Origin: Hericium rajendrae
Taxonomy: Eukaryota > Basidiomycota > Agaricomycetes > Russulales > Hericiaceae
NCBI GenBank assembly: GCA_033439255.1
Contig: CM065885.1
Span: 1,488,001 to 1,552,000, forward strand
DNA length: 64,000 nt
Reading direction: 5' to 3'
The notes beneath the pieces were generated by a model, which made no database searches, had not been told where the DNA came from, and worked only from the letters and a program-made list of their open reading frames with translations. This document shows positions 7,434 to 53,698 of this stretch, one piece after another (position 1 is the first letter of the stretch; each line of letters begins with the position of its first letter). Made by a program: the position numbers and the translations under genes.

Positions 7434-8397
7434 CATCTGAAAAACTTACAAGTGGTACATAGCTCTATAAAGTTTACATAGATTTCATAATTCCATAGCA
7501 CTGCCCTTTTCTCTGTAGCCCATATAGCTAAAGGGAGATGCTATATAGTGCTATAGAGCTCAAGAGTGATGCTATGGAGTGCTATCATAGCTATAAGAGC
7601 TGACTATGTAGCTATGATAGTATGACTAGCTATGAAAGCTATAAGTGTTTATCAAAGCTATAAGGCTTATATATCTTACATATTCTATATTCGATATGTA
7701 TCTCATATATCCTATACTTAATATATATCTTACATATCTTATATTCAATATGTAGACCTGATATATATTTTGAAGCAATAAGATCTATTGAAACTATAAA
7801 TCTTTTCCACAGTCATATCAGAATCAAGAATATATAATCACACAAATATAAACTCTTTCAATGCATCAAAATTATATTGATATCATTAACATTACTATTA
7901 ACTAAAAAGCAAAGATATAAGTAAAACAATATAAGATAAGATAAGATATATAAGATAAGATAAGATAGACATATAAGATAAGATACAATAAGATATATGA
8001 GATAAGATATGATATGTAAGATAAGATATGATAAGTAAGAGAATGTAAGTAAATATAAGTAAGTAAAGATAAGAAAACATTAGTCTTAAAAGATAAAGAT
8101 AATATATATAAACTTACCCCAAAGTAAGAAAAAGTAAAATCTAAAAAAAAAAAAAAACTAACTTGAAGACATTAGTACTATTACTTTGAGCAATAAGAAA
8201 CCAACAAAAGATTACCTTAAAGTTAGCAACAATGAGCAAGAAAAAAATGATAACAAACAAGCAAGGAATAATAACGAGCAAGCAAAATGATGAGCAAGCA
8301 AGAAGCAACAACGAATGAGCAAAGGATGTCAATGAAGACATCAATGTGGCAAGAGACAGTAAAGGTTAAAGAGTAAGAGGCAACACACATTGCACGA

Positions 8398-8409
8398 GCC
8401 TTATATATG
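8398..8409 (+). promoter_or_regulatory. LU-A1 conserved promoter TATA box
   Basis: GCCTTATATATG, preceded by a GCACGAGC remnant of the CGTCGCGCAAGC motif found at this place in other LUs. About 410 nt upstream of the leader intron. Confidence 0.65.
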
Positions 8410-8817
8410 AATCTTAGGCAGAGCTGGGATCCGTGACTGTCAGGCACTTGCTGAGCGTCACGTCAAGACTGGGCACCAGACTTCACTAGATGGACTTGGC
8501 TCCTTGTGAGTTTCATATATAGTAGGTACTTATAATGCTCATTTGTTCGAATTGTATATACAATCTATAGCTCTACTGTTTTTCTCTGAATTTATATGAT
8601 TTTTCTTGATTTGTAGTGGCCCGAGAAATGTAGCTTCACTCGTTCGGTGGCTGAAGCACCAAATGCATGTCGAGACTTGTCTCTGTCTCTGTCTCTATCT
8701 CTCTCTCTATGTTTCTCATCTCTCCCCTCCTTCTCCTCCTCTTTCTCCCTGTTCCTTTATCTCTCTTGCTGATTCAAACATTTTAGTGAGTCTAGAAGCA
8801 ATGCAAAGGAACTTACA

Positions 8818-8885
8818 GTGAGTAAAAAAGCTTTTCATATATCTTTTCAAACTAATCAAGTGTCGCTCGTTTTCAAGTGACACTC
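8818..8885 (+). other. LU-A1 leader intron plus HP1 stem-loop
   Basis: Donor GTGAGT at 8818, branch ACTAAT at 8851, acceptor CAAG ending 8860 (43 nt). HP1 begins at the acceptor: arm AGTGTCGCTCG, loop TTTT, arm CAAGTGACACT, with the GTGT/ACAC version of the stem. The opening phase of the C-rich body follows. Confidence 0.6.
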
Positions 8886-9062
8886 ATTGTTTCGACACCC
8901 CCACACCCTTCATCACCTATCTAACATCTCCATCCCCTCCAATGATGTCAACAATCCTCCTGCTGCCTGTGCATGCAACCCCAATACTCCATGCCCAAAC
9001 TATCATGTCACCCGGTACCCCCTTTTGCATGCATGCATGCAGACTGCACAGGCACATTACTG

Positions 9063-9463
9063 CATCAGGAACCTTCAAAACTTTCTGATGGACCCTGCAG
9101 AGTCTGATCAACTGCAAGACCTGATCCAGCTGCAGGCTCTAATTAGAGATCAATTTCTGATCAGAGCTTTTATATTTTGAAATCAATAACTATTGGCAGA
9201 TATAGTAGTCATCCAACTCTAATCATTAGATGCAACAAACTTTTCAATATCTAAAATTTACATAAATCTGATCAGTTCTGATCAATCTGTGAGCATTCTG
9301 CATTGATACTTTTTTGAATCTTGAGGTCAAATATTCTGCAGCTAGCTGAGAGTAGCTGATGTTGTCTGAGAGTATCTGATGTGTCTGATGCAACTGCTGC
9401 AGATCATGCAGACACTGTCAGATGTCTCGCAGGTCAAACAGAAAGTTTTGAAGGTTCCTGATG
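9063..9463. mobile_element. 401-bp foldback MITE, type alpha, copy 2
   Basis: Same ends and same length as the copy at 5728. Here the flanking duplication is TG (9061-9062 and 9464-9465) rather than TA. This shows that the target duplication is two bases of free sequence and not part of the element. Inserted in the C-rich body of LU-A1. Confidence 0.88.
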
Positions 9464-10655
9464 TGCCCGTGCCCTCAATGTCTACGTGTCTGAGTGCTGT
9501 TGCATCTCATTGCTATGGCAACAAGACTCGGCTGTCCTTCCTTCGCCCTCGCTTGCCACACCTCAAGCAACCTGACTGGACCCTCTTCACCTCCCTACCG
9601 TTCACCAGTTTCATGAATGGCTCAAGTGTGCACGTTCCGTACACGTGCCAATGCTCCGCAATGCCCTGTGCTCAACACCCTGCACCTTACTTGCCTGCAC
9701 ATTGCCTTGGACACACATGCAATACCCTCAACATGTGTACAATGCTCTGACCGGCCACACGATGTCCTGCACTTGTGCACCATGGCCAGCCACATGTGCA
9801 GAATGCCTCAGACATGCATGCCATACTCAGCTCATGCATGCAACATCCTGCACACATACCCTTAACATCCCGCTCACCAGCTCCATCAGGAAAAACCGTA
9901 TGTACTATCGCAAACTACCGCTGGCTACAGTAGCTATAGTAGCCAGAGTAGTTGCGGTAGTGTCTATAGGACTCTTCTTATTTTCTGTAGCTACTGTAGA
10001 TAGATATTGTCTACTGTAGATAGATATTGTCTACTGTAGATAGATATTGTCTACTGTAGTTCACTGTAGTACAGATTTGCTACTGTAGACAAGTCAAGTT
10101 TCCACAATGTGCAATCTTCTACAGATGCTATAATGTGCTACCACAACTACAGTAGTCCATCCATGCTACAATAGATTTATTGCACATATGCAGCCTGTTA
10201 TATTTGCAGGTCTTCAAATTTGACTAACTCAATATAACATCTAAGTCAACAAAAAATTCTTATGCAGTTCATAAGGGTTCAAACAAACAACAATCAAATT
10301 TATTTACTAGCAAATACAAATACATGGTACTATATGAGACTACACTATAAGAGGATTCAAAAGCATAGACTGTAAAAAAGAACAAACATTACAAACATCA
10401 CAAAAAAAGCAATATTATATCTAACAAGTACTAGTAAAAGCTAGTTAGTGAGGTATCAAAGGCTATAAGCAAAGACTTACCAAAAAATAAAATAAAAAAA
10501 GAAACGAAAATGTACATACCCATAGTAAGGTAAGAACAGACATAAGCATAAAGATTACTAATAAGAAAAAGGAAGACACACCATGCACAAAGCTTGAGTC
10601 AATGACAGAAGAGATGATGGGGGTTGAAAAGAAAGAGAGGTTGCACGTCGTGCAT

Positions 10656-10666
10656 GCCTTATATAG
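10656..10666 (+). promoter_or_regulatory. LU-A2 conserved promoter TATA box
   Basis: GCCTTATATAG after TTGCACGTCGTGCAT. LU-B is inserted about 20 bp downstream. The GCAGCTGCCGTGACTTGG block that should follow resumes at 20653, on the far side of LU-B. Confidence 0.65.
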
Positions 10667-10706
10667 ACATGGCGAGCGGAGCCCAACATCTGAGAAATTT
10701 ACTACT

Positions 10707-11131
10707 TGTCACGGATCGCTCCATTTCTCTCCGCCTTCTTCTCTGCCATCAAGGCATCGCGTCGGTCATGTGCTCCAGCAGCCCCATCACATGTTCACTT
10801 CCTCACATGACCTGGGGCTATCCTTCACCCATGCCCTTGTTCCCCTTTGGGACATCCTATTGTTCTCCCTCCCATTGTTCTCCTTTTGGCCACCATCATG
10901 TTCTCACTCTATTGTTCGACCCGTTATGGTGTCCATTGTTCTTTTCCCATTGTCGTCCCAGTACTTATAGGCTTCCTGTCGCTCGCCTATTTCCCTAGAT
11001 TGTCCATTTCGTCTGTACCGTACTGTACCTCCAATACAGGTCACTGCGCTGCTAGTCGCTCTCTGCTCTCTCGCTCCCATCATCGCTGGTGACTTGGGTG
11101 GTTCTCTGCTGTCTACGACCGAGTCTTGACA
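10707..11131 (+). repeat. 5' LTR of element 2
   Basis: Starts TGTCACGGATCG and ends GAGTCTTGACA, preceded by the duplication CTACT. A TATA-like ACTTATAG lies near 10963. About 30 nt downstream, AGATTGTCCA at 10997 is the likely transcript start. Matches the 3' LTR apart from a 2-bp length difference. Confidence 0.97.
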
Positions 11132-11133
11132 CC

Positions 11134-11143
11134 TGGACAATCT
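11134..11143 (+). promoter_or_regulatory. putative self-priming primer-binding site, element 2
   Basis: TGGACAATCT begins two bases after the 5' LTR and is the exact complement of AGATTGTCCA at 10997-11006. That segment lies about 30 nt after the LTR TATA box, where the transcript should start. Tf1-type elements prime reverse transcription from the 5' end of their own transcript in this way. No tRNA 3'-end complement was evident. Confidence 0.6.
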
Positions 11144-11318
11144 CTCATACACCCACCTCACCTCCCTACTATCGCCCATCATACCTTTCTTCTTTGAACC
11201 CTTCACCGCCGACATCTTCACCGAATCTCGACATCCATTCCATCAACCTCATCTCCCCTTTCCCATCGCCAACACTATCGAGGGCAGTGCACTCATCCCC
11301 CTCCTCCGCTATTGTGCT

Positions 11319-12367
11319 GTGAAGCGTTGGGAAGCCGAAGGAGTTTGGTTTCGATTGAGGTCGTGGAAACCACGTGCAGGTGCTATCTCCATTGCCTTAT
11401 ACGTTCGAATTCGAGTTTCCTTTGACGTCGACTTGCAAGAATTCACGTTCGGTGCCTCGGACATCGCTTACCACTGTCGCCAACCCAACCGAGGATCCCC
11501 TGCAAGTATCCTACCATCGACCTCGTTCCCCTTTTGCACACTAGGTCTCTTCACCCCCGAACCCTCGCCTGAGCCTGTGTGGGCCAGAGAACGCCTCGGC
11601 CACCGATTCCTCAGAACCCCGTACTCGGACCCCCTGTACCCTCGTGCTCTTGGTCGTCGCCCAGTCGCGGCTGACTTCCTCTAGACCTCACCATTGATCC
11701 CACCGACCCCCGTTTCCAGACCACAGAACCATACCCACTTGGCGTCTTCGCCTCGCTCGACGAATACTTCATCTACACCCTTTCTGGCATCGTTCGAATA
11801 GACTTCGTCACTCCGGACGAGGACGACGACGGTCCCGCACAGTGGTACTTCGCCGATCGTGACGACCAGGCAGACCTCGAGCTTAACGACTTCGACGTCG
11901 CAGCTACAGAACACCATCGCCAACACCCCGCTACCCCGCCGCTTCCCACCGTCGCCCTTCCTAGTGCAGATTCTCCCCCTGCTCGCACCACCCCACTTGT
12001 TGTTCCCCCAGGTATTACCTTCAACCCGGTAACCAACAACTACTACGCATACCGCTCCGACACCAATCGGCTTGTAGTCAGTTGGAGACCCAGCCTCGTA
12101 GAAGAAAGTGACCTGTGGTTTTGGCAGGCCAGTACCCTCTTCTTAACCACTGCAGAACTCGCACTCTCTCAAGCAGTTATAGAGAATCTCGCTCAGCAAC
12201 AAGCTACCCGCCTCGATACCCTTCGGGCACCACCACCACCTGTTTCGACGCCTACCCCAGTACCAGTCCCCTCACCTGCTCCACCCGTTGCCGCTGTTGC
12301 ATCGACATCCACCGTCAACGTCAAACCAATCATTACCACAGCCCCCCCTGTTCAGCCATCCATCGAC
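11319..12367 (+). other. leader region of element 2 before gag, unrecognised coding character
   Basis: About 1 kb between LTR and gag, GC-rich in the third position and with long open stretches (for example 11319-11684). It ends in a Pro/Thr/Ala-rich segment just before the gag start. No known domain. A comparable unrecognised leader lies before the pol of element 1, so it may be a regular part of the lineage, such as an N-terminal Gag extension. Confidence 0.4.
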
Positions 12368-13360
12368 ATGTCCAACCCTGAGATCGGCGTCAAACCTGCT
12401 CCCTTTGAGGGAGATCGTTCCAAGTCCAAGGAATTCCAGCTGCGTATTCGCTTATTCCTTCGCGCCAACTCTACCCGGTATAAAGATGATACCGCCCAGA
12501 TCTCCCTCTTCCTCGACCTCTGCCAGGGCCCTATCGCCGGCCAGTGGGCCACCCAGCGCGTCGAGGAGATCCTTGAGGATGACGATCTCGTGGCTGCAAA
12601 CACGTCTCCAGCTCATGTTCCCCGTTACGCCAACCTCACCACCCTTCAAACTCGCTTCAACTTGGACTTCTCTCCCCTTGATGACTCCAAGGATGCCTCC
12701 CATGCTATCCAGACCCTCCAGATGGGTACGCGCCCGGTAGTCGACTACATCACCGAGTTTGAGTCCTTCGCCCCTCGCACCGGCTACAATGACGTGGCCC
12801 TGATCGACTGGTTCCTGCATGGCCTCAACAGCACCCTGTGCGATGATTGCCAGCGCAGCTACCCCACGCCCACCACCCTGGCTGAGTGGAAGGCGAGGGC
12901 CCGTGACAGGAATGCTGCCTACCTCATGCGCACCCGGTTCCAGAGTCCCCGCCCTACAACTGGGCGCACCCCGGTGAGCACTCGCTCCCCTCAGTCCACA
13001 TCTACTGGCCGATCCCGCACAGTCGCTGCTACAGGTGCCCCACTGCCCAAACTCTCGGAGCCTGACCGTGAGCGCCTCAGGCGTGAGGGCGGTTGCTTCC
13101 GCCGCTGCCGCCAGAAGGGCCATGGCTTCCGCGACTGCCCCCTCAATGCCGACTCCAACCCCCGTGCCCCAACCCCTCGTGTCCGAGCGCTAGAAACCGG
13201 CTCTGCCCCGGGAGTAGCTCCAGAAGATGCAGCCGCCGCCCTCGCTGTCCCCGCCATCAACAGGTCCATCGCCGACTTATTGTCGCAGTTGAAGGACTTG
13301 AGCGAGGAAGAAAGGGAAGAGGCAAAGGCTGCATTAAAGGATATGGTTGAGGGTTTTTAA
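12368..13360 (+). CDS. gag of LTR element 2 (capsid and zinc knuckle)
   Basis: About 330 codons. A capsid-like helical region (roughly residues 5-175) includes KEFQLRIRLFLRAN, a block reading QTRFNLDFSPLDDSKDA and a WFLHGL motif, as in retrotransposon Gag (UBN2/RVT-Gag type). A basic Ser/Pro-rich linker follows, then a CCHC-type knuckle near residues 238-255. A short acidic helical tail (SEEEREEAKAALKDMV) closes it. It packages the RNA in virus-like particles in this family. The start was chosen at the ATG that opens MSNPEIGVKPAPF. Confidence 0.85.
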   Translation: MSNPEIGVKPAPFEGDRSKSKEFQLRIRLFLRANSTRYKDDTAQISLFLDLCQGPIAGQWATQRVEEILEDDDLVAANTSPAHVPRYANLTTLQTRFNLDFSPLDDSKDASHAIQTLQMGTRPVVDYITEFESFAPRTGYNDVALIDWFLHGLNSTLCDDCQRSYPTPTTLAEWKARARDRNAAYLMRTRFQSPRPTTGRTPVSTRSPQSTSTGRSRTVAATGAPLPKLSEPDRERLRREGGCFRRCRQKGHGFRDCPLNADSNPRAPTPRVRALETGSAPGVAPEDAAAALAVPAINRSIADLLSQLKDLSEEEREEAKAALKDMVEGF

Positions 13361-13383
13361 AGCGCCCCCCGGTCACGTCGTCC

Positions 13384-16300
13384 GTGGGTGGCAAGAAACA
13401 TTTCTTTGATCCGTCGAATCGCTTCTCTGTACTATCCGACCCCTGTGAGCAATTGTATCCATCGTCTTTGCGCATGTCCGCTATCACACCCAACCGTCAG
13501 ACACCGTCCATTACGCTCCAGGCCAAGATTATCACTGCCCCGATCAAGAAACAAATCGACGCTGAGGCACTTCTCAATAGTGGTGCAGAAGGCATCATTA
13601 TGCACCCCGAGTTTGCCAAGAAACACCAGTTCCCCCTCAAGAAACTCCCTAAACCCTTTCCCGTTCGCAACGTGGACAACTCCGAAAACATCATGGGCTG
13701 GGTCCGCTATTCAGTCAACCAGAACATCCACATTTACGCCAAGGACTCGACGTCCTTCCATGAGGAGACAGCTGAGTTCTATCTCGTTGATATTGGCGAC
13801 TATGACATTATCCTTGGGACCGATTGGTTACAGGAACACAACCCTGAAATTGATTGGGTCTCTCGTTGTGTTGACATGACTCGCTGCCCTCCCTCTTGCA
13901 CCCTGAATAAACCCCCGGTCAAAAACCTGTCCACTCGCTCAGAACGCCGCCAATCAGCCCCTCGTCCACCAGTCCTCAGTACCGCTGCTGTACTGCTCCC
14001 CCCACCTTGCCCCCCTCCATTGCTCCCACTGCCCCCGCCATTTGTTCCTGCCCCACTTCCCAAATACATGATCCCTGCTCGCCAAGTCCAAGGTGTCCGT
14101 CTTCGCCGCATCCACCTGTCCAAAGTCCCTGCACGTCTGTTTACCGAGGATGATGACCCACGACCTAACGTCGATGATGACTGGGTTGAAGAGGGTCTTC
14201 GCCTAGCTGGTGTTCTCCCTGACTGGAACACACCACCCCCTCCAGATGACGACCCAGACTACCAACATACCATCCGTATCCGTCGCTCTTTCACCAATGC
14301 TCAGAAACTGGCTGAGCGTGTGGCCGCCCATGTCGCGGAGAAGTCCTTTGCTGAGATGGTTCCCCCTCAGTACCAGGATTTCCAACCCGTCTTCGATGAG
14401 GAATCCTCCCATCGCCTTCCTGAACGTCGCCCTTGGGATCACGCCATCGACCTGAAAGATGGTTTTGAACCCCGTTCATGCAAGGTCTATCCCATGGCTC
14501 CCACTGAGCAGGAGGACCTCAATTCGTTCCTTGATGACCAGGTCAAAAAAGGCTACATCTGTCCTTCCAAATCCCCTATGGCGAGTCCCTTCTTCTTTAT
14601 CAAGAAAAAAGATGGAAAACTACGCCCCGTCCAGGACTATCGCACCTTCAACAAGGGCACCATCAAGAATGAATATCCCCTGCCCCTCATCTCTGAACTC
14701 GTTGACAAGCTCAAGGGTGCCAAGGTCTTCTCCAAGATGGACGTTCGTTGGGGTTACAACAACGTTCGCATCAAGGAGGGTGACGAATGGAAAGCCGCCT
14801 TCAAAACCAACCGTGGTCTCTTTGAACCCCTGGTGATGTTTTTTGGTCTTACAAACTCCCCTGCCACGTTCCAAGGAATGATGAATGAACTTTTCAAGGA
14901 TCTCATCGACATGGGCAAAGTCGTCATCTACATGGACGATATCCTCATTTTCACCGAAACCCTCGAAGAACATCGCGACCTTGTGCGCAAGGTCCTCCAA
15001 CGCCTCCAGGACAATGACCTCTTCCTCAAGCCAGAGAAGTGCTCTTTCGAGCAGCCCTCCGTTGAGTTCCTCGGTCTCATCGTCTCCCATAACACGCTTG
15101 CCATGGACCCCGTCAAGGTTGCAGGCATCGCTGAATGGCCTGCCCCCCGTAACGTCAAGGACGTCCAGTCCTTTGTTGGCTTTGGCAACTTCTATCGACG
15201 CTTCATCCAGGACTTCTCCAAAGTCGCCCGTCCCATGTTTGACCTTACCAAGAAAGACCATCCTTGGGCCTGGTCTGCTGAATGTCAACATGCCTTTGAG
15301 GCTCTTAAAGCTGCGTTCACCTCGTCCCCAGTCCTTATCATGCCTGACCCGTCCAAACCCTACTTGGTTGAGGTCGATGCCTCAGACTATGCCACAGGAG
15401 GTATCCTATCCCAGCGCGGGGAGGACGAGCAATGGCACCCTGTTGCTTACATCTCCAAGGCCTTCACTGCCCCTGAACGCAACTACGACATTTATGACAA
15501 GGAACTCCTGGCTATCATCCGTGCCCTCGAAGCCTGGCGCCACTACCTGGAAGGCTCTCCCCATACTGTGGAGATCTGGACCGACCATAAGAACCTGGAA
15601 TACTTCAAGTCTGCCCAAAAGCTGAGTCGTCGTCAGGCTCGCTGGGCTCTCTTTCTCACTCATTTCGACTTCACCTTGATCCACAAACCCGGTATTCATC
15701 ACCGGCCAGATGCCATGTCGAGACGACCTGACCATAGAGAGGGGGTGGACGACGACAACTCAGATCGTGTCCTCCTCGACCCCAAGTACTTCCAGATTCG
15801 TGCTACACGTCCAGCTGCTGTCAAGTCCATTGGCAATGCTGATCTTCGCCAACGCATTTGCAATGCCAAGACCAAGGATATTGAGGTCGTTCAAGCCCTT
15901 GACGTGATCCTGAACAACGGTCCTCGCTCTCTCGTCAAGAACCTCCAAGAATGGAACTACGAGGATGGCCTCATCCTCTTTCGTGGCAAAGTCTACATCC
16001 CTGCTGACAAGGACCTTCGGTGAGATATCGTCAAGCTGCATCATGACACTCCCATGGCTGGTCACCCTGGACGCTACAAGACCTATGAGCTCCTCAGTCG
16101 CAACTACTGGTGGCCCGGTATGTCTGTCTTCGTTCGTGATTATGTCGATGGCTGTGCTACCTGCCAGGCCACCAAGGTTCAAAATCACCGCCCCCATGTT
16201 GAAACAATCCCCAATGCCATCCCTACCCGTCCCTTCCAAGACATTACCTCGGATTTCATCGTCAAACTCCCCGAATGCCAAGGCTATGACTCCATCAATG

Positions 16301-17490
16301 TGGTCGTCGACCGTTTTACAAAGCACGTCTCCTTCACTCCTTGTAATGAGACCATTACCAGTGATGGCACAGTCGACATCCTTTTTGACAGGATTTATCG
16401 GAACTACGGCCTCTGGGAGCGCCTCATCTCTGATCGTGGCCCACAGTACGCAGGCAAAGTCATGTGTGGCATCTTTGACAAACTTGGTATCAAGTCCTCC
16501 CTCAGCACCGCCTATCATCCACAGACCGATGGCGAGTCAGAACGCGTCAATCAAGAACTCGAGCAGTTCCTTCGTACCTTCTGCAACTACCGTCAGGATG
16601 ATTGGGTCCAATGGCTCCCTTACGCTGAGTTCTCACACAACCACCGTATCCACAGCGCCACTAACCGAGCTCCATTTGAAATGCTCCTCGGCTATATTCC
16701 CACTGCCATCCCCACTGTCAACCCCACATCGTCTACACCCGCCATCGAGGATCGTTTCCGTCACCTCGAACAACTTCGCACTGAGGTCCAGGCCAGCCTT
16801 CAAACAGCTGCTGATCTCATGAAGCGCAACAACCAGGACCATATGCACGACACCATCCACTTCCAGGTTGGCGACAAGGTCTGGCTCGATGGCAAGAACA
16901 TCAAGACCACACGACCCAAAGCTAAGCTTGCTGATCGACGCCTGGGACCTTTCGAAATCACTGACGTCCTGGGCCCAGTCTCTTATCGACTGAAGCTACC
17001 ACCCACCTGGCGTATCCACCCGGTGTTCCACACGTCCCTGTTGTCCCCTTACAAGGAAACCGATGCTCATGGTCCCAACTTCCCTGCACCACCACCTGAC
17101 CTTGTGGAGGGCGAGGAAGAGTACGAAGTTGAGTCTGTCCTCGATGCTCGTCTCACTCGGAACAAATGCGGCATTGAATATCTCGTCAAATGGGCAGGCT
17201 ACCCGGATTCAGAAAATCAGTGGCTTTCACGTACTTCCCTTTCCAATGCCCATGGTGCAATCACCGACTTCTACACCCGCCATCCGCATGCACTCAAGGC
17301 TCCCAATCTTCGTGGACTCATCTACCTCGATCCCGTCCATGCTCATCACGCACTCCAGGCGAAAGTGCGTCTTAGAGAGGGGGTGATGTCACGGATCGCT
17401 CCATTTCTCTCCGCCTTCTTCTCTGCCATCAAGGCATCGCGTCGGTCATGTGCTCCAGCAGCCCCATCACATGTTCACTTCCTCACATGA
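13384..17490 (+). CDS. pol region of LTR element 2 (PR-RT-RNase H-IN-chromodomain)
   Basis: Domains in order: retropepsin-like protease about 13560-13860 (SGAEG then ILGTDWL); reverse transcriptase about 14460-15300 ([24 protein letters not shown]); RNase H about 15340-15720 ([25 protein letters not shown]); integrase about 16040-16900 (YWWPGM, CATCQATK, DFIVKLPE, SDRGPQY, YHPQTDGESERVNQE); integrase C-terminal module near 16860-17040; chromodomain about 17110-17260 (YLVKWAGYP, then W at the cage position). Looks nearly whole, with about one interruption. Confidence 0.93.
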
Positions 17491-17809
17491 CCTGGGGCTA
17501 TCCTTCACCCATGCCCTTGTTCCCCTTTGGGACATCCTATTGTTCTCCCTCCCATTGTTCTCCTTTTGGCCACCATTGTTCTCACTCTATTGTTCGACCC
17601 GTTATGGTGTCCATTGTTCTTTTCCCATTGTCGTCCCAGTACTTATAGGCTTCCTGTCGCTCGCCTATTTCCCTAGATTGTCCATTTCGTCTGTACCGTA
17701 CTGTACCTCCAATACAGGTCACTGCGCTGCTAGTCGCTCTCTGCTCTCTCGCTCCCATCATCGCTGGTGACTTGGGTGGTTCTCTGCTGTCTACGACCGA
17801 GTCTTGACA
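17387..17809 (+). repeat. 3' LTR of element 2
   Basis: Directly follows the purine tract at about 17374-17386. Ends TTGACA and is followed by CTACT, the same five bases that precede the 5' LTR. Confidence 0.97.
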
Positions 17810-19223: not shown

Positions 19224-19229
19224 CGTTCT

Positions 19230-39889: not shown

Positions 39890-39894
39890 CGCTG

Positions 39895-41620: not shown

Positions 41621-41623
41621 TAC

Positions 41624-42108: not shown

Positions 42109-42109
42109 C

Positions 42110-43370
42110 ATCTTTGTACCCTTCGCACGCCCACGGACTCCTGCGTGCCCGAGCTGCCTCATGCATGCCCGCACTGACTCCTGCATGCCCACGCCGAGTC
42201 ACTCGCCCCCACATCGACTCCCGCACACCCCCATCGCCTCACTTGCACCCCCACCGAGTCACGCACACCTGCGCCACGTCGCGCAAGCCTGCGCCGACTC
42301 GCTCGCACCCGCGCCGCCTTGCTCACGCCCCCCATCGAGTCGTTCACACCCCCACCGAGTCGCACTTGCCCGCACCGACTCGCTCGCACCCGTACCGACT
42401 CCTGCGCACCCGCGCTGTCTCCTGTGTGCCCACGTCGACTCCCGTGCACCTGTGCCACCGCCCGTGCGTCTCCACCGACTCCCGCACACCCCTTGCCAAC
42501 TCCCGCGCACCCCCCGCTGATGCCCCCGCACTCCCATGCCCCCGCACTGACTCCCGTGCACCCGCGCCGACTCGATCACTGGCGCCGCCTCCCGTGCCCC
42601 CCCCCTGCCGCCTCCCGTGTCCCCCCCCGCGCAGACTCGCCCGTGCCCGCGCCGATGGCAGCATGCCCGCGCTGCCGTCCATGCGCCCATGCCACTGTCC
42701 GCGCGCCCCTGCGCAGACTCTCAAGCCCCCGCGCCATGTCCAGCACGTCCATGCCGCCTCCAGCGGACTCGCGCCGATGCCTGCGCACCGACGTCAACTC
42801 CCGCGCGCCCCCACTGACTCCCGTGTGCCCATCACCGACTCGATCACCGGCGCCGCCTCTAGCGCACCCCGGCCACTTCCCGCATGCCCTTGCCTCTCCC
42901 GTGCCCCCGCGCGGACTCGCACGCCCCCGCGCCATGTCCAGCGTGCCCATGCGGCCTGCAACGCGCCCATGTGGTCTGCAGCGCGCCCATGTGGCCTGCA
43001 GTGTGGCCGTGCCGACTCGCACCTGCCCGCGCGGACTCGCACATGCCCCCCTGCCGACTCCCGTGCCCCCGCGCCAATTCCTGCGCCCCCGCGCCGCCTC
43101 CCGCCCCTCTCGTGCCGACTCGCATGTGCCCGTGCAGACTCGTCGCGCCCGTGCCGCCTCACACGTGTCTGCGCTGCCTCCTGTGTGCCCATGCCGCTGC
43201 TTGCATGCCCGCACTGGCTCCAGTGTGCCCGTACCGACTCCCGCGTGCCCGCACCGACTCCCGCATGCCCGCACCGACCCCTGCGCGCCCTGCCACCTCC
43301 CGCACACACCCGCCAACTTCTGCATGCCCTCCGCTGACCCCCACATGCCCATGTTGCCTCCCGTAGTGCA
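42110..43370 (+). repeat. LU-F plus-arm minisatellite body
   Basis: A 21-bp repeat, C-rich on plus (CCGCACCGACTCCCGCGTGC), the reverse-oriented counterpart of the minus-arm body. Long Pro/Ala/Arg frames in all phases, not called as genes. Confidence 0.75.
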
Positions 43371-43371
43371 T

Positions 43372-43403
43372 GGGAACTGTTTTGCTGCAGCAAAACATTT
43401 CCC
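43372..43403. repeat. closing palindrome of LU-F plus arm
   Basis: GGGAACTGTTTTGCTG and near-complement (one mispair). Mirrors 40404-40431. Confidence 0.75.
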
Positions 43404-43821
43404 ACGAGGCATTGGGTGCTGTAGGTGCAGAAGAATATGGACTGAAAGATGTACTACTAGTGTACAAGATGTAATGAGTCAGAAATATAGTACTTTCTGT
43501 GGTATACTGCTGGAGATCTGATATAAGAGATAATCATGCATGATAACAAACTATACATGGCTATAGGTAGAATGAAGCTACCAAAGTGTATAGACTCTAT
43601 TGTAGGTGCACTGTAGATACTGTAGCTTTGAGCAGCTATGGTAGATTTGGCCATCTACAGACTGCTATGGACTGCTACAGACTGCTACAGATCAGCTACA
43701 GGTAGCAAATATAGGGACCCACTTGTCACCAAGAGCTACACAATCTATGGGACCTTTTTCAGCTACTGTAGATTAATATTGCTACTGTAGATCCCTGTAG
43801 AATCTACGCCTTTTCCAGATG

Positions 43822-44000
43822 CGATGGCTTGCCTGCAATCTGCTTGCCTGCCTGCTCATCTGCACACCTGCCTGCTCACCTCTGTACCTTTCCACTTGTT
43901 CACATGCTCATCTGCTCACCTGCTTGTTTGCATGCTCATCCACTTACCTGCTTGCCTACATGCCCACCTGCTCACTCACATGCCCACCTGCTCACTCGCA
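43822..44000 (+). repeat. TGCTTGCC-type repeat array, right part
   Basis: Continuation of the array at 39895, with GCTCACCTGCTTG variants further out. From 44000 to 44160 I see no feature. Confidence 0.7.
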
Positions 44001-44167
44001 TGTCTGTCTGACCTATGTATGTACTACAGTAGAGGGGGCTAGTGTTTATATATCTGTGAGATGACAGCACAAGTGGCCTAATGTAGTATGGAGTAGTGAT
44101 TAGCTAGCTCATGTTATGTAGTTATTCTTAAATAAAGTTTTTGAATGTTCTGATATATTGCAATTGA

Positions 44168-44238
44168 GTGAAATACTTGGTGGAAGAGGGCCAATGCTTC
44201 GCACGGCAATACGATTCCTTTTTCATTGTTAGTTATAT
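44168..44238 (+). repeat. 60-nt conserved module, copy 3
   Basis: TACTTGGTGGAAGAGGGCC, then CGCACGGCAATACGATTCC, then CTTTTTCATTGTTAG. The most conserved of the four copies. Confidence 0.6.
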
Positions 44239-45217
44239 TTAGAAACAGTGCATAAATGATGTAAAGTCTCACTTGTCAGATTGATTATAAATCTCTATAA
44301 AATCTATAGCTACCTCAAGGTCAACATCTGAGAAATATGTTACTGGTATATAACACTATATTAGCTACATAGCTTTTCTAGGTCCATAGCTATCCTCTTT
44401 TATACATAGCAGTCAAGTAAACTATGCAAAGCTATCATAGCTTGTCATAGCTGTCATAGCATAAGGCATAAGCTATCATAGCTACCATAGCTACCATAGC
44501 ATAGGGCATAAGCTATCATAGCTGTCATAGTTATTCTAGTATAAGATAACTATAGAAGCTATATTAACTATATAATATATCTCTATCATTATATTATATC
44601 TAGCTAGTAAGATTTCTATCTACTCTATATTACTTCTATCAAATATGCTAAAATAGCATATAAAATAAATATATTATAGATTCAATAGTCTGATGTCTTA
44701 CAGTCACAAACATCGAAAATTGGATAAATTATATTACTCAAACAATTTCATTACAAAACATTACTATAGCTACAGAGACTACTACAGAACTACAAAAGGT
44801 AACAAACTTACAATGACTACAAAAAGCAAAAGATACAAATAAGAAAAGACATGAGTATTAGAAGATAACAAAGATAATATATGAAGACTTACCAGATTAA
44901 CAAAAAAGTGAAAATCTACAAGACAATTTGAAGACATCAGTATAAGAAACAATCAAGCTTACCTAGTAGGACTACATGGTAGTGTAATAAGTATGAAGAC
45001 ATTAGTATAAGTTATAAGATAATTAAGAATAACAGCGTACCTTTAACAACAAAGAGAACAATAATAATAAAATGAGCAAACAACAACGACAAGTGAGCAA
45101 ATGATGACGATGAGTGAGCAAACTCGGATGACAAGTGAGCAAATGATGACAACAAATGTGTTGACGTGGCAAGGGATGGTGGGGGTTAAAGAGCAAGAGG
45201 TAAAGCGCATCGTGCCA

Positions 45218-45229
45218 GCCTTATATAGG
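45218..45229 (+). promoter_or_regulatory. LU-G conserved promoter TATA box
   Basis: GCCTTATATAGG preceded by AAAGCGCATCGTGCCA. Confidence 0.65.
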
Positions 45230-45638
45230 AATCCCAGACAGAACCGGAATTTGTGGTTGCTGGGTGCTTGCCAAGTGTTGTGGCAGAGACTGGATGCCAG
45301 ACTTTACTACGTTGATGCTGCTGCTCACAGATTCACAGTCCAGTAGATATACAGTGTTCTCATACATTCTAATTAAATGTATAATCTATCACTGTCCCTT
45401 TTTTCATTGAATTTATACAAGTTTATTTGATTTGCTGAGGCTCGAGCAACAAAGCTTTGCTCATTCGGTGGCTGAAGCACCGAGTTTAACATGTCGAGAC
45501 TTCACTCCTTTTTACCAGTCTCCCTTCCCCTCCTTCGTGTTTCCTCCTCCAGCCTCCTTCCTTCTATTTCTTTCATTCTCTATTGGCTTTCAATACAGCT
45601 GGGATGGTTTTTTTTAGCAGATACTTAGAGGGCCTTAG

Positions 45639-45715
45639 GTGAGTAAAAAAAAAAGCCTCTTATCATTTTTTCGTACTAATCAAGAGAGTGTTAATCGTTT
45701 TTCGAGCGACACTCT
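45639..45715 (+). other. LU-G leader intron plus HP1 stem-loop
   Basis: TTAG then GTGAGT, branch GTACTAAT, acceptor CAAG ending 45684 (46 nt). HP1 has outer arms GAGAGTGT and ACACTCTC intact. The inner left arm is altered (TAATCG opposite CGAGCG), so the upper stem is weak in this copy. Confidence 0.65.
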
Positions 45716-46046
45716 CGATATCTTTTATTCTGTTAACCCCACATCCCCACGCTACCATCCTACGATCCTGCTGCCTTTTTTGCACTCTCATCGCCCCTTC
45801 CTCGGCCTGTCTACGCCACATCCACGCCCTGTGCACAGCTCGTACACCCCATGCCTGACTCCAACAGGCTGCGACCCCTGCGCATGCCTCCGACCACCAT
45901 CTCCTTCCACGTGCACCAGCATGCACAAGGCTACAGCATGCGTGCATGTGTGTACCACGTGACATCATCTGCACGACGTCAACAACATGTGCACACGGGC
46001 CACGTCATCGCCCATGCCCCACGTCCGTGCATGTGCATGCACCATA

Positions 46047-46070
46047 GTCCCGTTGCCATGGCAATGGGAC
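46047..46070 (+). other. LU-G HP2 stem-loop
   Basis: GTCCCGTTGCCA and TGGCAATGGGAC: 11 Watson-Crick pairs and one G-U. The fourth and fifth pairs are C-G, against T-A in LU-E. Confidence 0.65.
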
Positions 46071-47269
46071 TCGGACGTCGTTCATGCCTATCGGCCATGA
46101 CCCCGCATGCTCGCCTCAATCCCCGCAAGGCCTTGTGCTCATGTTCAACACCGTGCACGCTTGCAACGTCCTGTCCATGCACTCAAGCCCCCACACCCAC
46201 TCACAACACCCTGCACTTGCTCACAATGCCTCGGACATGCATGCTATGCCTGGTTGCATGTATGCTCCTGCACCTGCTCAACTCAACATGCCCTGCGTGT
46301 GTGCACAACGATCTGCACAGGTGCACAACAATCACACATGCGTGACGTGCCATACAGTGCCTCTTCGTGCATGCAGAATGTTCTGCAGGCCCGCTCCAGG
46401 CCTCTTGCACATGCTCGACACCTGCGCATGCCCGACATCCCCTGCACGTGTCCAGCTCCACCTCCGCATGTGCACAGATGCCAGTGCATAGTGGTGCTGC
46501 AAGACCCCATCTCACAACAACGCATGCACGACACCCAGCATTCGCACTCAATGCCACTTGCCTACAACGCCCTGCATGTGCGCATGCTCCCGCGTGCCTG
46601 CTCAACACCCCGCACCCTCCAGATGCTCTGCATACATGTGCAACGTCCCACACGCATGTACGCAACCTGCGCGCATGCACGGCAGCCCTAACCCCCATTT
46701 GTGGGCATGGCCACCCGCACGCAGCTACACATGGTCTGGCTTGCCATGCATGGACCATGTATGCTGTGCACAGCCCACGCCTACCCCTGTGCCCTCTGTG
46801 CCGGCATTCGTGCATGCTGCACCACCTTTTGTATGTACGTACTGTCTTTTGTGTGCCCACACTGTCTTTGCACCTGTACCTGCACCCTCCACAGTGACTT
46901 GCATGCCCTCCGCATCCTGTGCCCTATGCAGTAGCTCGACTAGCTTACATATGTATGGTAGTAGATTTATTACAATTTATTATGATAAATTCTGACTTGT
47001 AATATCTGGTGCTTATCTGACTTGTGGTAGTAATCATAGGCATCATAGTAGCCATAGCACACCTTGTTAATCATGATAGCCCTATGTATATCAGACTACA
47101 GGCTATGGAGGCTATGATAACCCTATCAATGTCACACTGTCTGCTATGTAGGCTATGATAGCTCTGATAGCTCTACATAGCTGGATAAGCAAACTTCATA
47201 GCTCTGATAGCTCAATGATAGCACCTATAATGTAACCTGCAGCTATGTCAAATTCAAATTTCTCAGATG

Positions 47270-48385
47270 AAGATCTTGAAAGGAAGATCTCAGTTTCGAG
47301 TTTTGATTTTCGAGTTCTGGGCAGATTGGGGTCTATGTAGCATGGCTGGAGAGCGATTAATCAGTACATTCCAGCGCATTTTAGAACAATTAAATCGGTG
47401 GAGAACTGCCAGACTTACCTTAAGGTCAAGATCTTGGGGGGGAGATCTCAGTTTCGAGTTTTGATTTTTGAGTTCTGGATGGCATGGGGTCTATGTAGCA
47501 TGTCTGGAAAGCGATTAATCAGTACATTTCAATGCAATTTAGAACAATTAAATCGGTGAAGAACTGCCAGACTTACCTCAAGGTCAAAATCTTGGGGGGA
47601 GATCTCAGTTTCGAGTTTTGATTTTCGAGTTCTGGGCAGATTGGGGTCTATGTAGCATGGCTGGAGAGCAATTAATCAGTACATTCCAGCGCATTTTAGA
47701 ACAATTAAATTGGTGGAGAACTGCCAGACTTACCTCAAGGTCAAGATCTTGGGGGAGAGATCTCAGTTTCGAGTTTTGATTTTCGAGTTCTGGATGGCAT
47801 GGGGGCTATGTAGCATGGCTGAAAAGCAATTAATTAGTACATTCCAGCCCAATTTAGAACGAGTGAATCGGTGGAGAACTGAGTGACTTACCTCAAAGTC
47901 AAGATCTTGGGGGGGGAGATCTCAGTTTCGAGTTTTGATTTTTGAGTTCTGGATGGCATGGGATGTATGTAGCATGTCTGGAAAGCGATTAATTAGTACA
48001 CTCTAGTGCATTTTAGAACAATTAAATTGGTGGAGAACTGCTAGACTTATCTCAAGGTCAAGATCTTGGAGAGGAGATCTTAGTTTCGAGTTTTGATTTT
48101 TGAGTTCTGGATGGTTTGGGGGCTATGTAGCATGGCTGGAAAGCGATTAATCAGTAGAGTTGAACACATTTTAGAACGAGTGAATCGGTAGAGAATTGAA
48201 GGACTTACCTCAAGATCAAGGTTTCTAGGGGGTAATCCCAATTTTGAGTCTTGATTTTCGAGTTCTGGATGGTTTGGGAGCTATGTAGTATGGCTGGAAA
48301 GCGATTAATCAGTAGAGTCGAACACATTTTAGAACAAGAGAATTGGCAGAGAATTGATGGACTTACCTCAAGATCATTAGAATAA
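47270..48385 (+). repeat. 158-bp tandem array, seven units
   Basis: Units start AAGATCTTGGGGGG, then AGATCTCAGTTTCGAG, GAGTTCTGGATGGCATGGGG, TGGCTGGAAAGCGATTAATC and end GACTTACCTCAAGGTC. Period about 158 bp. A piece of the first unit lies left of LU-G (44314-44324). Unit ends contain ACTTACC, a splice donor in reverse, so a minus-strand series of exons is conceivable, but frames are poor. Confidence 0.88.
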
Positions 48386-48850
48386 TGATAATTGGTTGAT
48401 TTTCAACTAGGCAGATAGGCTAGCATAGCTCAGAAGGCCTCATCTGGAAGCAGCTATCAATATCATTTTGATAAGCTCTAATATACCTTAGTTGGTATCA
48501 GATTTAAAGACTTATAAGTAAATTAGTCTGCCAGCTCAGCAAGTTAGATACATACAAGACGACCAAGGTGAGCCGCCGAGTCAAGTACCTCCTGGTTCCA
48601 AACCGTCAACCACTCAGCGGATGACTTGGAGATACCCGTCGAGCCTTGCAGCCAACATGACAAGCATGCAGGATGTAAAGCTCATGAGAAAGCAAGACTT
48701 TACTGCTGGTGCTTCAAAACTGAAATTTTGATTATATAATCAGTCTTCAAAATCATAGATTTCTAGGCATTTCTGTACTTATAATATACTATAAGAGTAG
48801 ACATTGTACTAATGCTAATTGCTCATTGATTATATTATTCTTAGTATTAA
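48386..48850. other. unassigned, with tRNA-like traces
   Basis: A stretch near 48560-48640 on the minus strand has GCTGAGTGGTTGACGG (A-box-like) followed by GGTTTGGAACC (weak B box). This may be a decayed tRNA-derived repeat. Nothing else is recognised. Confidence 0.3.
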
Positions 48851-48854
48851 AAAA

Positions 48855-48925
48855 TATTAAAAAAGTCTGGCATGAACTGGAATTGAACTTGCAAACTCAA
48901 GAGAACTCACACTTCACCACCGAGT
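48855..48925 (-). repeat. tRNA-derived SINE head, partial copy
   Basis: The minus strand has a B-box-like AAGTTCAATTCC and a T-rich run, as at 26329 and 49483. The A-box half is replaced by unrelated sequence. Confidence 0.45.
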
Positions 48926-48949
48926 TTTGATTATGTAATCATCACATGA

Positions 48950-49025
48950 TCACCACCATGGTACGGCCGTACCATGGTGAAGTGCTCATGTGATCACAAC
49001 CATGGTACAGCTGTACCATGATGAA
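48950..49025. repeat. paired palindromes around CCATGGTAC
   Basis: CACCATGGTACGG with its complement, followed 24 bp later by ACCATGGTACAG with its near complement. The two share flanking CATGTGATCAC words, like a small duplicated dyad. Confidence 0.75.
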
Positions 49026-49039
49026 GTGCTTCACATTCT

Positions 49040-49482
49040 ATGAGTTCTGCATGGATCAAAATGCAAAAAATATGGTTTGAAAGCTATAAATGAGTAGTAT
49101 TCGATCCACTTGAGAACGAGTGAATCGGTGGAAAATTGATTGAGATAACTAAGAATCAAGCATACTAGGAGGAAAAATACAGAAGTACTTCGTGTTCTAC
49201 GAGTTCTGCACAGATCAAAATGCATAAAATATGGCTAGAAAGCAATGAATGAGTAAATTCTGATACATCTAAGAATGAGTGAATCAGTCAAGAACTGACT
49301 GAGCTAGCTGAGGATCAAGCATACTAGGGGGAAAATACAGGAATGCTTTGCATTCTGCAAGATTTGCATGGATCAAGATGCATAATATATGGCTAGAAAG
49401 CGATAAATGAGTAGATTCTGGTGCATTTGAGAATGTGTGAATTGGTCAAGAACTGACCAAGTTACAGTAAACAAAGTGTAAA
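49040..49482. repeat. degenerate tandem array, about 140-bp unit, second locus
   Basis: Three units with GTTCTGCACAGATC, ATGCATAAAATATGGCTAG, AAAGCAATGAATGAGTA and GTGAATCAGTCAAGAACTGA phrases. Homologous to 25850-26328. Confidence 0.7.
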
Positions 49483-49570
49483 AGAAAAAGTCTGGCCAGA
49501 GCTGGAATTGAACCTGCAAACTCATTAGATTGAAGATGTGTGATTATATAAGCCAACTGCCTAATGGGCA
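49483..49570 (-). repeat. tRNA-derived SINE head, copy 2
   Basis: On the minus strand: GGCAGTTGGCTTATAT, B box GGTTCAATTCC (49504-49514), T-run near 49485. The upstream flank on the minus strand also matches copy 1 (GCGATTCCTTAGAATC type), so the repeat unit is longer than the tRNA-like part. Confidence 0.6.
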
Positions 49571-49876
49571 TAGTCATCGTTTTGGTGTCATTTTCACTAT
49601 GAAAAGGCGGTATAGAGTAAATGATTCTAAGGAATCGTAATAAGGATATCAACAGTTGTTTATACATTGAATTGTATAACTACTATAAAGAGATTCATTA
49701 CTACAGTAGAGACATATTCACTACAGGTCACTATGGCTCACTATCAGAGCCACGGTAGTAGGGGGGGTCCTACGAGTACTACAGGAGCTACGAGAGCTAC
49801 AGGTCACTACAGTAGGATTCTGATCACTACTGTAGCTCATGGTAGCCCACTGTAGCTCTTCCTGTTTTTCCAGATG

Positions 49877-50825: not shown

Positions 50826-51690
50826 TTCATACACAAGGCATGACAAGCATCATGACTGTGCAGGAGGTCCAGTGCATCAGGAAAATGTAGAGGTACTATA
50901 TAGTCCTATCAGAGTTATATAGAGTTCCTAGGGCCATAGCATTGCCCTTTACTCCATAGCCTATATAGCTAAGGAGAGATGCTATATAGTGCTATAGAGC
51001 TCAAGAGGGATGCTATGAAGTGCTATCATAGTTATCATAGCTTACTATGCAACTATCATAAGACATATAGCTATGAATGCTATGAATGCTATATCACTGA
51101 TACAAGCTATGTCTATAAGATAGACTTGATATATTTATATAAGCTATGTTCATAAGGTAGACTTGACAGATCTATAAAAGCAATGAAAGCTATTTATATT
51201 ATCTAATCTACAATCAGACTACAAACAAATTTTCACAAGTTTCAAATTAACAAAAACATCGAAATTTTAGAAAACATCATTATTCATCAGATAGACTAAT
51301 ACATGAAAGAGTATTACATTGTACTAAAAAGTAAACAAGCCTATATATATTTACAAGTGTTAAGTTAAACTATATAAAATAAAATAAAACATAACAAAAC
51401 ATAAAACTTATCTCAAAGACAATAAAAAGCGAAAATGAAACCTTAAAGTCAACAACTTATTGTAAGTAAACAATAAAAAGAAAGAGCACAAAAGACAAGT
51501 CTTACCAAAGAGAAGAAAAAGCGAAAATATTCATGTCTACAAAGATAATATATGAGCATAAAGATTAGTTAACAATGTAACAACATAAGAACTTACCGAA
51601 CAAAGAAAGTTGAAGAGAGAAAGAGAAGCGAACGACGGAAGACGGGAGATGGTAGTGGTAGGGAAGAGAGAGAGGACGCGCGTCGCGCGA

Positions 51691-51702
51691 GCCTTATATA
51701 GC
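51691..51702 (+). promoter_or_regulatory. LU-H conserved promoter TATA box
   Basis: GCCTTATATAGC preceded by GACGCGCGTCGCGCGA. The CpG-rich dyad downstream is also well kept (GGCTGCCGGGCGC). Confidence 0.75.
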
Positions 51703-52114
51703 TGAGCCCGGACGTGCCCGGTCGGAGCCACAAACGTGGCTGCCGGGCGCTGCTGGGCGCCGCGCCAGAGGCTAAGTGATAGATTTTGTTAACTTCTGTT
51801 TGATGCTCAGTAGCGTACAGTATGTTAGTTAGACAAATAGCTCATACGATCGAATGGTATGAGAAATTTATACATGCCGTCTTTTTTCCTGAATTGTAAC
51901 GATTTGATTCGATTAATGAAGTTCGAAACGTTTGAACGCGCGCTTATGATCGCTCAAGCAGTGAGGCACGTCGTTCGACTTGTCCTTGTTCTCACTCACT
52001 GTCAGTTCCTCGACAGCTCCCCCTCGTCTCTGCATCCCATTCTCCTCCTCGTTGCCCTTATTTTTCATTAACGCGAAGGTCGGCAGGGTCGGTTGGAGGT
52101 TTAGAGGGCCCAAG

Positions 52115-52191
52115 GTAAGTGAAGAAACACTTCTTTTCGTGCTTCTCGTACTAATTCCGAGAGTATCGCTCGGATAACGAGTGATATTCTC
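52115..52191 (+). other. LU-H leader intron plus HP1 stem-loop
   Basis: AAG then GTAAGT, branch GTACTAAT, acceptor GAG near 52161 (47 nt). HP1 arms GAGAGTATCGCTCG and CGAGTGATATTCTC, with two G-U pairs and no mismatch. Confidence 0.72.
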
Positions 52192-52437
52192 GTTCTTTCG
52201 TGCCTCCGCCCCCTCCGTCGCCCTCTCCTCCCCTTCGCCGTCCTCTTCGCATCCTCGCCGCGTCAATATCGCTGCCACGTCGCACACGCGACATCCTCTG
52301 CGCGTGGTTCCGATGCCCCATCGCATACGGTTTCATTAGCCCGTGCGTGCCGTCGCGCCTGCCATCCAGGTCGTGCACGCCCCGCCCACCTCAACATCCT
52401 CATACGGCCACGACCACGACACAAGCACGACTATTGG

Positions 52438-52461
52438 GTCTCGTTGCCACGGCAACGAGAC
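52438..52461 (+). other. LU-H HP2 stem-loop
   Basis: GTCTCGTTGCC and GGCAACGAGAC, all pairs intact. Confidence 0.7.
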
Positions 52462-53698
52462 TCGATATCTCGTACTGCGCCCCTGCGTCCGCTTCCTGCA
52501 CCCCCGACTGCGCGCACACGACCTCAACAGCACGTTCCCGGGTATGTACGCCCGCGACAGCGTGTGCGTGGGCCCACGTTTGGCCCCGGCTGCGCGCGCC
52601 TGTGCCCAACCGCCCACTCCCCCCCGGACGGTGCGCCTGCACGCCCCAGACTGCGCGCGGTCGACCGTGCGCGGTCGTGACAGTGCAAGCACGAGTGCGA
52701 GGGCGCGAGCAGGCCTCCACGCCCTTTGTGCCCTCTGCACGGCCCGCCGCCCTCTGTGCCACGTCCGCCACCTCAAAACCGAGTCCAGGCCCTCAGCGCC
52801 GCGTCAACGCCCTCAGCAGCCTACCTGCACCCTCCGCGTCGAGCCTGCGCACTTCGCGCCGTGTCTGCACCCTCCACGTCGTGCCTGCGCCCTCTGCGCT
52901 GTCATGTCGCCCTCTTCGCCACCTCCCAGCTCTCCGCGCCGTGTCAGCGCCCTCTGCACCTCACCTGCGTACTCCCCGCCATCTCCGCGCCATCCGCACC
53001 GCCTCCACGCCATCCGCGCCACCTCCGTGCCATCCGCGCCACCTCTCTGCCCTCCGCGCCACCTCCCCACCTTTCGCACTGCCTCCCCGCCTTTCGCGCC
53101 GCCTCCCCGCCTTTCGCGCCGCCTCCATGCCCTCCGCATCGCTTCCGCACCATCCGGGCTGTCGCCCCGCCCTATTCGCCACCTCTCACTCTGCGCCGCG
53201 TCCACACGCTCCGCGCCCCATCCGCGCTGTCCGTGCCGCCGCTCCGCACTCCGCGTACCTCGCGTGACATCAACATCCCCGCACGACATAATCCCATGCG
53301 CACGGACCCCCGACATCTGCGGGCTGTTCGCAATGCTGCCCGAGTAGTATCTATAATTACAACTAGTTTTGTAGCTATGTTCCTTATAGCAATGAAAAAA
53401 AAATTTGAAGTCAGAAGTTCTTCATATAATAAAATCAGAAAATCTGACTTGTGATTATGGAGTCTACCATACCTGACATAGGGCTTATAGAATCCATAGC
53501 AAGGCTATGATGGTACATAGCTCTGATAGTAATGACTTACAGGTACATAGACCTACATACCTTCTGCCTGCTGCTATGAAGACTATCATAATGTTCATAG
53601 CTCTACATAGGTGCAAGGGTGGCTATATAGACCTCATAGCACTATGCTAGGACACATACTTTAATACTGAGCTATATAGATTTCTAATTTTTCAGATG

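Follow-up and report, generated by a model that had tools for sequence, protein, structure and literature searches.

A family of large inverted-repeat elements in Hericium rajendrae, most likely mobilised by Plavaka, with a predicted spliced and hairpin-bearing RNA unit

The closest described systems to the elements reported here are the Plavaka and PlavakaB transposons. In the available parts of the account by Kojima (2025, PMC12730594), PlavakaB termini read CATCA..TGATG and are flanked by 2- or 3-bp duplications, and Plavaka is grouped with EnSpm/CACTA in the CMCT clade. We analysed a stretch of 64,000 nucleotides of the Hericium rajendrae genome (C8:1488001-1552000, hereafter the window; the genome comprises 46.8 Mb in 19 contigs) and describe in it a family of large terminal inverted repeat (TIR) elements, which we call LU. 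LU elements resemble Plavaka and PlavakaB in their 5'-CATC ends, their 2-bp duplications and their occurrence in mushroom-forming fungi, and two of them, element F and its relative X, have end sequence in common with a local Plavaka. They differ from PlavakaB in having no transposase, mostly CATCT ends, and an internal unit consisting of a TATA motif, an intron and covarying hairpins, of which those parts of the PlavakaB account make no mention (PMC12730594).

Our preferred reading, to which we give a probability of roughly 0.7, is that LU elements are non-autonomous transposons mobilised by Plavaka, each carrying its own unit for a spliced, structured non-coding RNA that would be gated by a first hairpin (HP1) and would benefit the element.

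Three other known systems bear comparison. Non-autonomous CACTA/EnSpm and Pack-type elements likewise combine conserved ends and subterminal repeats with an interior unrelated to the transposase gene; the LU interior, in contrast, keeps splice signals and RNA hairpins, and no captured gene was recognised in a search made with the body of element H. Introners, as described in the available parts of PMC9860276, are short introns present at many places and tied to transposable elements, whereas in LU the splice signals and an adjoining stem are conserved rather than the intron interior, the stem reaches into the exon, and the carrier is a TIR transposon. The miniature inverted-repeat transposable element of Porphyromonas gingivalis that bears a minisatellite (available parts of PMC4596501) also holds a short tandem repeat within a TIR element, but it is a bacterial miniature element, while LU has many unrelated bodies with a common 20-bp period.

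Ends, target duplications and the link to Plavaka

We confirmed that LU is a family of large TIR elements with 2-bp target site duplications (TSDs). All eight nested elements of the window, A, B and D to I, have matched CATCWG ends and exact 2-bp duplications, none of which (0/8) extends to 3 bp. CATCT is found at both ends of B, D, E, F and G, while A is the only element with CATCA at both ends and H and I have it at one end. With up to one mismatch permitted, the end motif CATCTGAGAAAT matched the window 9 times against 0.59 expected and the end motif CATCAGGAAAA 8 times against 1.77. The TATA motif GCCTTATATA had 11 matches against 3.41 expected. The features of the window are as follows.

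6528..6619, minus strand: additional intron-HP1 unit outside the named elements (covariance model)
7128..7221, plus strand: another such unit, likewise not within a named element and weaker (34.8 bits; covariance model)
7434..9051, plus strand: LU copy, 5' end only, 3' end not seen; TATA at 8398; intron-HP1 unit 8811-8895
9884..23516, plus strand: element A, CATCAGG ends, TSD TC; encloses B; decayed intron-HP1 unit 21615-21703
10687..20650, plus strand: element B, TSD AA, with a Gypsy element inserted in it; TATA at 18726; unit 19146-19235 with HP1 altered on both arms; second hairpin (HP2) 19519-19560
10707..17809, plus strand: Gypsy long terminal repeat retrotransposon within B, 5-bp duplication CTACT
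27776..30634, plus strand: element D, TSD TA, 2859 bp (ends and TSD)
28633..28642, plus strand: TATA motif GCCTTATATA of D (motif match)
29052..29100, plus strand: predicted intron of D, with donor GTAAGC, branch TACTAAC and acceptor AG within the 5' arm of HP1
29098..29126, plus strand: hairpin HP1 of D (pairing, covariation, fold)
29180..29925, plus strand: C-rich body of D with 20-bp period (periodicity test)
29237..29278, plus strand: hairpin HP2 region of D (pairing, covariation)
33482..36227, plus strand: element E, TSD CA; TATA at 34294; unit 34705-34799 with the donor GT lost; HP2 34850-34891
38133..49876, no strand assigned: element I, TSD TT; encloses F and G
40051..43821, plus strand: element F, CATCTGG ends, TSD CG; Plavaka-related ends; unit 42018-42119; two opposite-strand C-rich arms
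44325..47269, plus strand: element G, TSD AA; TATA at 45218; unit 45631-45724
50875..53698, plus strand: element H, TSD TG; TATA at 51691; unit 52107-52200; HP2 52429-52470; 20-bp periodic body 52480-53280

Outside the window, the LU terminus pattern matched the genome 569 times (279 + 290; this and the hairpin pattern counts below are given as forward plus reverse strand, with the reversed pattern as control), and the control gave 0. Twenty LU regions (L036-L055) were fetched as the best matches of element D, and they therefore represent mainly D-type copies. Both ends with equal 2-bp flanks were present in 14 of the 20; two regions (L045 and L049) had two ends with differing flanks, and in four (L040, L043, L050 and L051) a complete end pair was not found within the fetched stretch. 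All but one of the 15 oriented copies were 2.66 to 3.18 kb long, the exception being L037 at 4.9 kb. An empty site was found for an LU copy inserted in a Gypsy element on C4: compared with the related Gypsy element of the window, the junction is exact and a single CA remains. The eight exact duplications with matching ends reported in a preliminary description, made from the letters of the window, are thus all present. Matched ends with equal 2-bp flanks also recur in the fetched regions, and LU termini recur across the genome.

A search of the genome with the Plavaka profile PF18759 gave at least 132 matches among the best candidates scored. None of the matches listed falls within the window interval, and no transposase gene of LU's own was found there. 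One Plavaka was delimited in full length (C4:1119862-1132277, 12.4 kb). It has CATCTGG-type ends (CATCTGGAAAAAGTGT) and the TSD TG, it sits in a Gypsy gag gene whose uninterrupted relative is at window positions 12879-12880, and its frame matches PF18759 at an E-value of 1e-85. Its 5' end is 83% identical over 220 columns to that of X, a relative of F nested in another region (L057:2082-6075). F itself is 86% identical to this Plavaka at the 3' end (36 columns) and 68% at the 5' end (195 columns), and an internal hairpin stretch is common to F, X and the C4 Plavaka. F and X thus have TIRs related to those of an autonomous Plavaka of the same genome, and because of this end homology we read them as mobilised by Plavaka. 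For the copies with CATCTGARAAA ends the same reading is suggested by the resemblance of their ends, by their duplications of 2 bp and by the internal unit that they share, and we infer that the same kind of transposase moves them. Our analyses indicate that LU elements are most likely non-autonomous elements mobilised by Plavaka.

Several observations weigh against this link. An autonomous element with the exact CATCTGARAAA end was not found; beyond the one Plavaka that could be fully delimited, one further Plavaka 3' end is of the CATCTGG type. Two candidates for an autonomous LU were rejected, one (C4:356657) since its terminus is of the CATCTGG type and the other (C7:2558710) since the fetched stretch contains no LU 3' terminus. 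In addition, most LU ends are CATCT, unlike the CATCA of PlavakaB; the full-length C4 Plavaka also has CATCT. The class of the elements, left open in the preliminary description, is narrowed because F and X share end sequence with a full-length Plavaka; the search for autonomous relatives with the same TIRs yielded none for CATCTGARAAA. The earlier guess of a CMC/CACTA-like element pointed in the right direction, as the CMCT clade unites Plavaka and EnSpm/CACTA (available parts of PMC12730594).

Other Plavaka-related sequences were seen. Element I may be a Plavaka remnant, since window positions 47287-48799 are 81% alike to a sequence (L060:1-1527) downstream of a Plavaka gene on C7. Tandem repeats are present at 47270-48376 (158 bp, 7 copies) and 50126-50621 (122 bp, 4.1 copies). 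Two Plavaka-bearing stretches on C13 (97133-100990 and 122624-126481) lie in opposite orientation and are 99.97% identical over 3858 bp, which suggests recent duplication or movement.

The intron-hairpin unit

The new part of the system is the internal unit, a putative RNA unit that recurs under three end types (CATCTGARAAA, CATCTGGAAAA and CATCAGGAAAAACCG) and in tandem arrays. Its plan is a TATA motif, a leader of about 400 nt, an intron of about 45 nt, HP1, often HP2, and then a C-rich body of about 1 kb. The copy starting at 7434 has the intron-HP1 unit, as do B, D, E, F, G and H. The pairing-based search used detected HP2 in B, D, E and H but not in F or G. The motif CTTATATA is present in all 11 aligned D-type copies, in which the donor, branch and HP1 stand out; L046, a further D-type relative, is without it. 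The shared plan of promoter, leader, intron and HP1, often with HP2, that had been proposed for the window copies stands, as do the ends and duplications of the elements listed with it. E has lost the donor GT, however, and F has CATCTGG ends and no TATATA/TATAAA match, yet carries the intron-HP1 unit.

The unit also recurs in the fetched regions outside the window, a recurrence on which the preliminary description had made its proposal depend. The HP1 stem pattern, with at most one mismatch, gave 97 + 101 strand hits genome-wide and 0 for the control; since the pattern is near-palindromic, these correspond to fewer places. A covariance model of the intron-HP1 unit, run on 41 sources, gave 86 matches, about half of which are reverse-strand images of the palindrome or weak. 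The model added units in an A-type element (L057:6162-6248) and at window positions 6528, 7128 and 8811. Tandem units were found, for example three at L038:4930-5724. The exact HP1 patterns had 0 matches in viral contigs and 0 in prokaryote genome contigs. Rfam gave 0 gathering-score matches in the window, and for the D unit one sub-threshold hit on the minus strand (18.8 bits against 40). Literature searches brought up no paper whose title or opening abstract lines report a spliced structured RNA in Plavaka-type elements.

Twenty-three of 26 distinct intron-HP1 units were aligned. In these units, found with a pattern that already required the donor, the branch and at least 10 of 12 pairs, identity was 88% in the donor, 89% in the branch and 90 and 92% in the two HP1 arms, against 57% in both the exon and the intron interior, 51% from branch to stem, 53% in the loop and 58% downstream of the stem. 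Of the 42 HP1 rows used for covariation, 23 were picked with the regular-expression pattern; the other 19 came from the covariance model, which favours the structure. Reverse-strand partial hits, near-duplicate copies and nine model hits with an incomplete stem were omitted (the nine being window 21615; L051:5216 and 4902; L043:1163 and 1859; L044:4438; L045:3262; L046:2994; and L061:2257).

In the 14-pair HP1 stem 95.0% of cells are paired, a percentage conditional on the selection of sequences by pairing or covariance model, and 56 cells are changed on both sides compared with 22.0 in shuffles (reached in 0/500). Pairing falls to 27-48% when the partner is slid by 1 to 3 columns, and one pair is seen as A-U (37 units), G-C (3), C-G (1) and U-A (1). 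On the sense strand G·U exceeds A·C by 53 to 21 (p 2.6e-4, a value that ignores shared descent). HP2, for which 15 sense sequences were selected by pairing, is 93.8% paired, with five pairs changed on both sides against 1.7 in shuffles (0/500) and G·U to A·C at 32 to 12. When folded as single sequences, five HP1 units and one HP2 gave z-scores of -3.7 to -7.1. The earlier term "structured RNA-like" could thus be upgraded, because of the HP1 covariation and the sense-strand G·U bias, to a covarying hairpin with a bias of RNA type. Two results pull the other way. Counted as covarying pairs, HP1 in the 42 units has 8 against 6.2 in shuffles (55/500), which is not clearly above them, and the 23 units picked without the model are weaker, with 3 double-changed cells against 0.8 (14/500) and 2 pairs against 0.7 (70/500).

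It is unlikely that HP1 and HP2 are DNA palindromes, that is protein-binding or transposase sites, instead of RNA structures. Inverted repeats with symmetrical changes would likewise be kept at such sites, and the HP1 arms are almost invariant in many copies. That G·U outnumbers A·C on the sense strand in both hairpins, however, is a bias not expected of a DNA site, and in the aligned units HP1 is always at the 3' end of the conserved intron.

The predicted intron has the spliceosomal signals, namely a GT donor, a TACTAAY-like branch and an AG acceptor. The donor GT is present in 39 of the 42 aligned units and an AG at stem columns 59-60 in 38. As the best candidate for the acceptor AG is located in the HP1 5' arm, gating of the 3' splice site by this hairpin is probable; this is our best guess for its role. 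The first AG that follows the branch was located in a set of 38 units: 22 have it in the 5' arm of HP1, 14 ahead of the stem and 2 at a later position. The 14 units with an earlier AG outside the stem count against gating; in them this AG is always 5 nt past the branch A, a short distance for a spliceosome.

We also considered that the intron-HP1 stretch might be an introner-like, self-inserting mobile intron whose presence in LU is secondary. The unit recurs in varied surroundings and in tandem arrays, and in C1 and the first 4.15 Mb of C2 only 5 of 14 HP1 places have a suitably oriented LU terminus within 3.5 kb. Introners are alike across the entire intron, whereas here the intron interior is unconserved (57%) and HP1 reaches into the exon. 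The unit is also found under other transposon ends, those of the F and A types, which accounts for HP1 places lacking LU termini. We regard an introner origin as improbable.

The pattern of a second stem lineage, GAGTACTGCTYR, matched 62 + 71 times (control 0), and this lineage occurs in arrays with spacings of, for example, 321, 340 and 798 bp. Three tandem units and one opposite unit are downstream of a Plavaka gene on C11. Co-location of this lineage with Plavaka gives the Plavaka reading no support: among the first 100 matches listed, 9 of 31 clusters are within 12 kb of Plavaka loci, a number reached by 3/5000 whole-contig rotations but by 443/5000 local shifts, and so not above local clustering. 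At C12:1031129-1037386 two mirror-image arrays of four hairpins each, with equal spacings (798, 340 and 321 bp), are about 3.3 kb apart.

C-rich bodies and leaders

The C-rich bodies appear to be non-coding. Six copy pairs were compared, and in every one of the six frames nonsynonymous changes outnumbered synonymous ones (the closest case being 19 to 25, in frame +2 of L044/L046). Each frame contains stops, and of 14 body indels 4 have a length divisible by three. This agrees with the earlier view of a C-rich body without a conserved protein, as no frame favours synonymous change. That the bodies encode fast-evolving proteins is hardly credible given these counts, since the long open frames that would favour it are open in several frames simultaneously, as expected of GC-rich 20-bp repeats.

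A 20-bp period was found in all seven window bodies tested (six elements, of which F gives two), and it exceeds the result of every one of 500 Markov simulations. Among 60 lags, lag 20 is the highest in six of these bodies and the second highest in E. No such period was found in four Gypsy coding stretches. In nine D-type relatives the lag-20 score was lower (1.7 to 4.7) and was the top lag in three (L036, L048 and L049). F and X each have two outward C-rich arms on opposite strands with a central region between them, and both arms of F have a strong 20-bp period.

Bodies align between close copies, and the alignment is mostly lost at about 82% flank identity. Regions L049 and L054 agree at 95-97% in their two ends and in the body but at 60% in the leader, and for this reason leaders appear to be exchanged between elements. 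Whole-body exchange was also considered as a generator of diversity and found to be unsupported, as bodies stay alike in close relatives and the leaders differ instead. The tandem arrays of the unit, the 20-bp period and the leaders that differ between copies with like bodies all go beyond the preliminary description.

The bodies could alternatively be of Pack-type origin, the LU ends having picked up parts of host genes; every body would then be a different captured fragment, and the leader a borrowed promoter. Bodies are indeed unalignable between subfamilies whose flanks are about 82% identical. A search with the body of H, however, gave 77 matches (40 candidates scored). HP1 places occur no more than about 0.6 kb from at least 15 of the matched loci, which are therefore taken as LU relatives; a donor may lie among the other matches. 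The like bodies of close copies, their non-coding look and the common 20-bp period also count against capture, which we consider very improbable.

Proposed role of the RNA and other repeats of the window

The processing of the LU RNA is suggested to matter because the splice signals and stems are conserved and the body is not. In the mechanism we propose, a Plavaka (CMCT clade) transposase supplied in trans would move the LU copies, and the element's own TATA unit would make the predicted spliced non-coding RNA. Closed HP1 would hide the acceptor AG and open HP1 would expose it. Selection would retain the splice signals and stems but not the letters of the body, which would consist of decayed 20-bp repeats. 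We infer that this RNA is transcribed, spliced and gated to the benefit of the element. The likeliest benefit would be that clean or controlled splicing lets transcripts escape recognition as transposon RNA. In a basidiomycete yeast, stalled splicing reportedly triggers transposon silencing. Piwi-domain matches were found at four loci of the genome, so RNA-based silencing would be available for LU to avoid.

Non-autonomous DNA transposons are usually viewed as passive passengers with decaying interiors. Many LU copies retain a promoter motif, splice signals and covarying hairpins as their remaining sequence drifts, a pattern suggesting that the RNA as such is important to the element. More tentatively, and with some doubt, Plavaka-type transposons may carry an undescribed modular RNA composed of a repeated short intron, a splice-gating hairpin and a C-rich exon with a 20-nt period. 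The hairpin would then act as a switch for the 3' splice site, and the RNA would serve the element, for example by shielding its transcripts from RNA-based silencing or aiding mobilisation. If so, elements with such a modular RNA would be selected as RNA producers, not carried as passive passengers. The predicted acceptor inside a conserved stem offers a testable case of structure-controlled splicing in a transposon, and LU elements may provide a handle on how transposons respond to splicing-linked silencing.

Two other repeats were noted in the window. A near-palindromic element of about 585 bp is present in three copies (20755-21339, 26712-27297 and 56327-56907) that are 98-99% alike, with arms about 86% alike. 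Two Gypsy stretches (14252-17813, within the Gypsy element of B, and 58444-62005) are in opposite orientation and 99.2% identical over 3562 bp. The closest named relatives of both the Plavaka protein (67%) and the Gypsy protein (79% over 65% of the query) are from Dentipellis.

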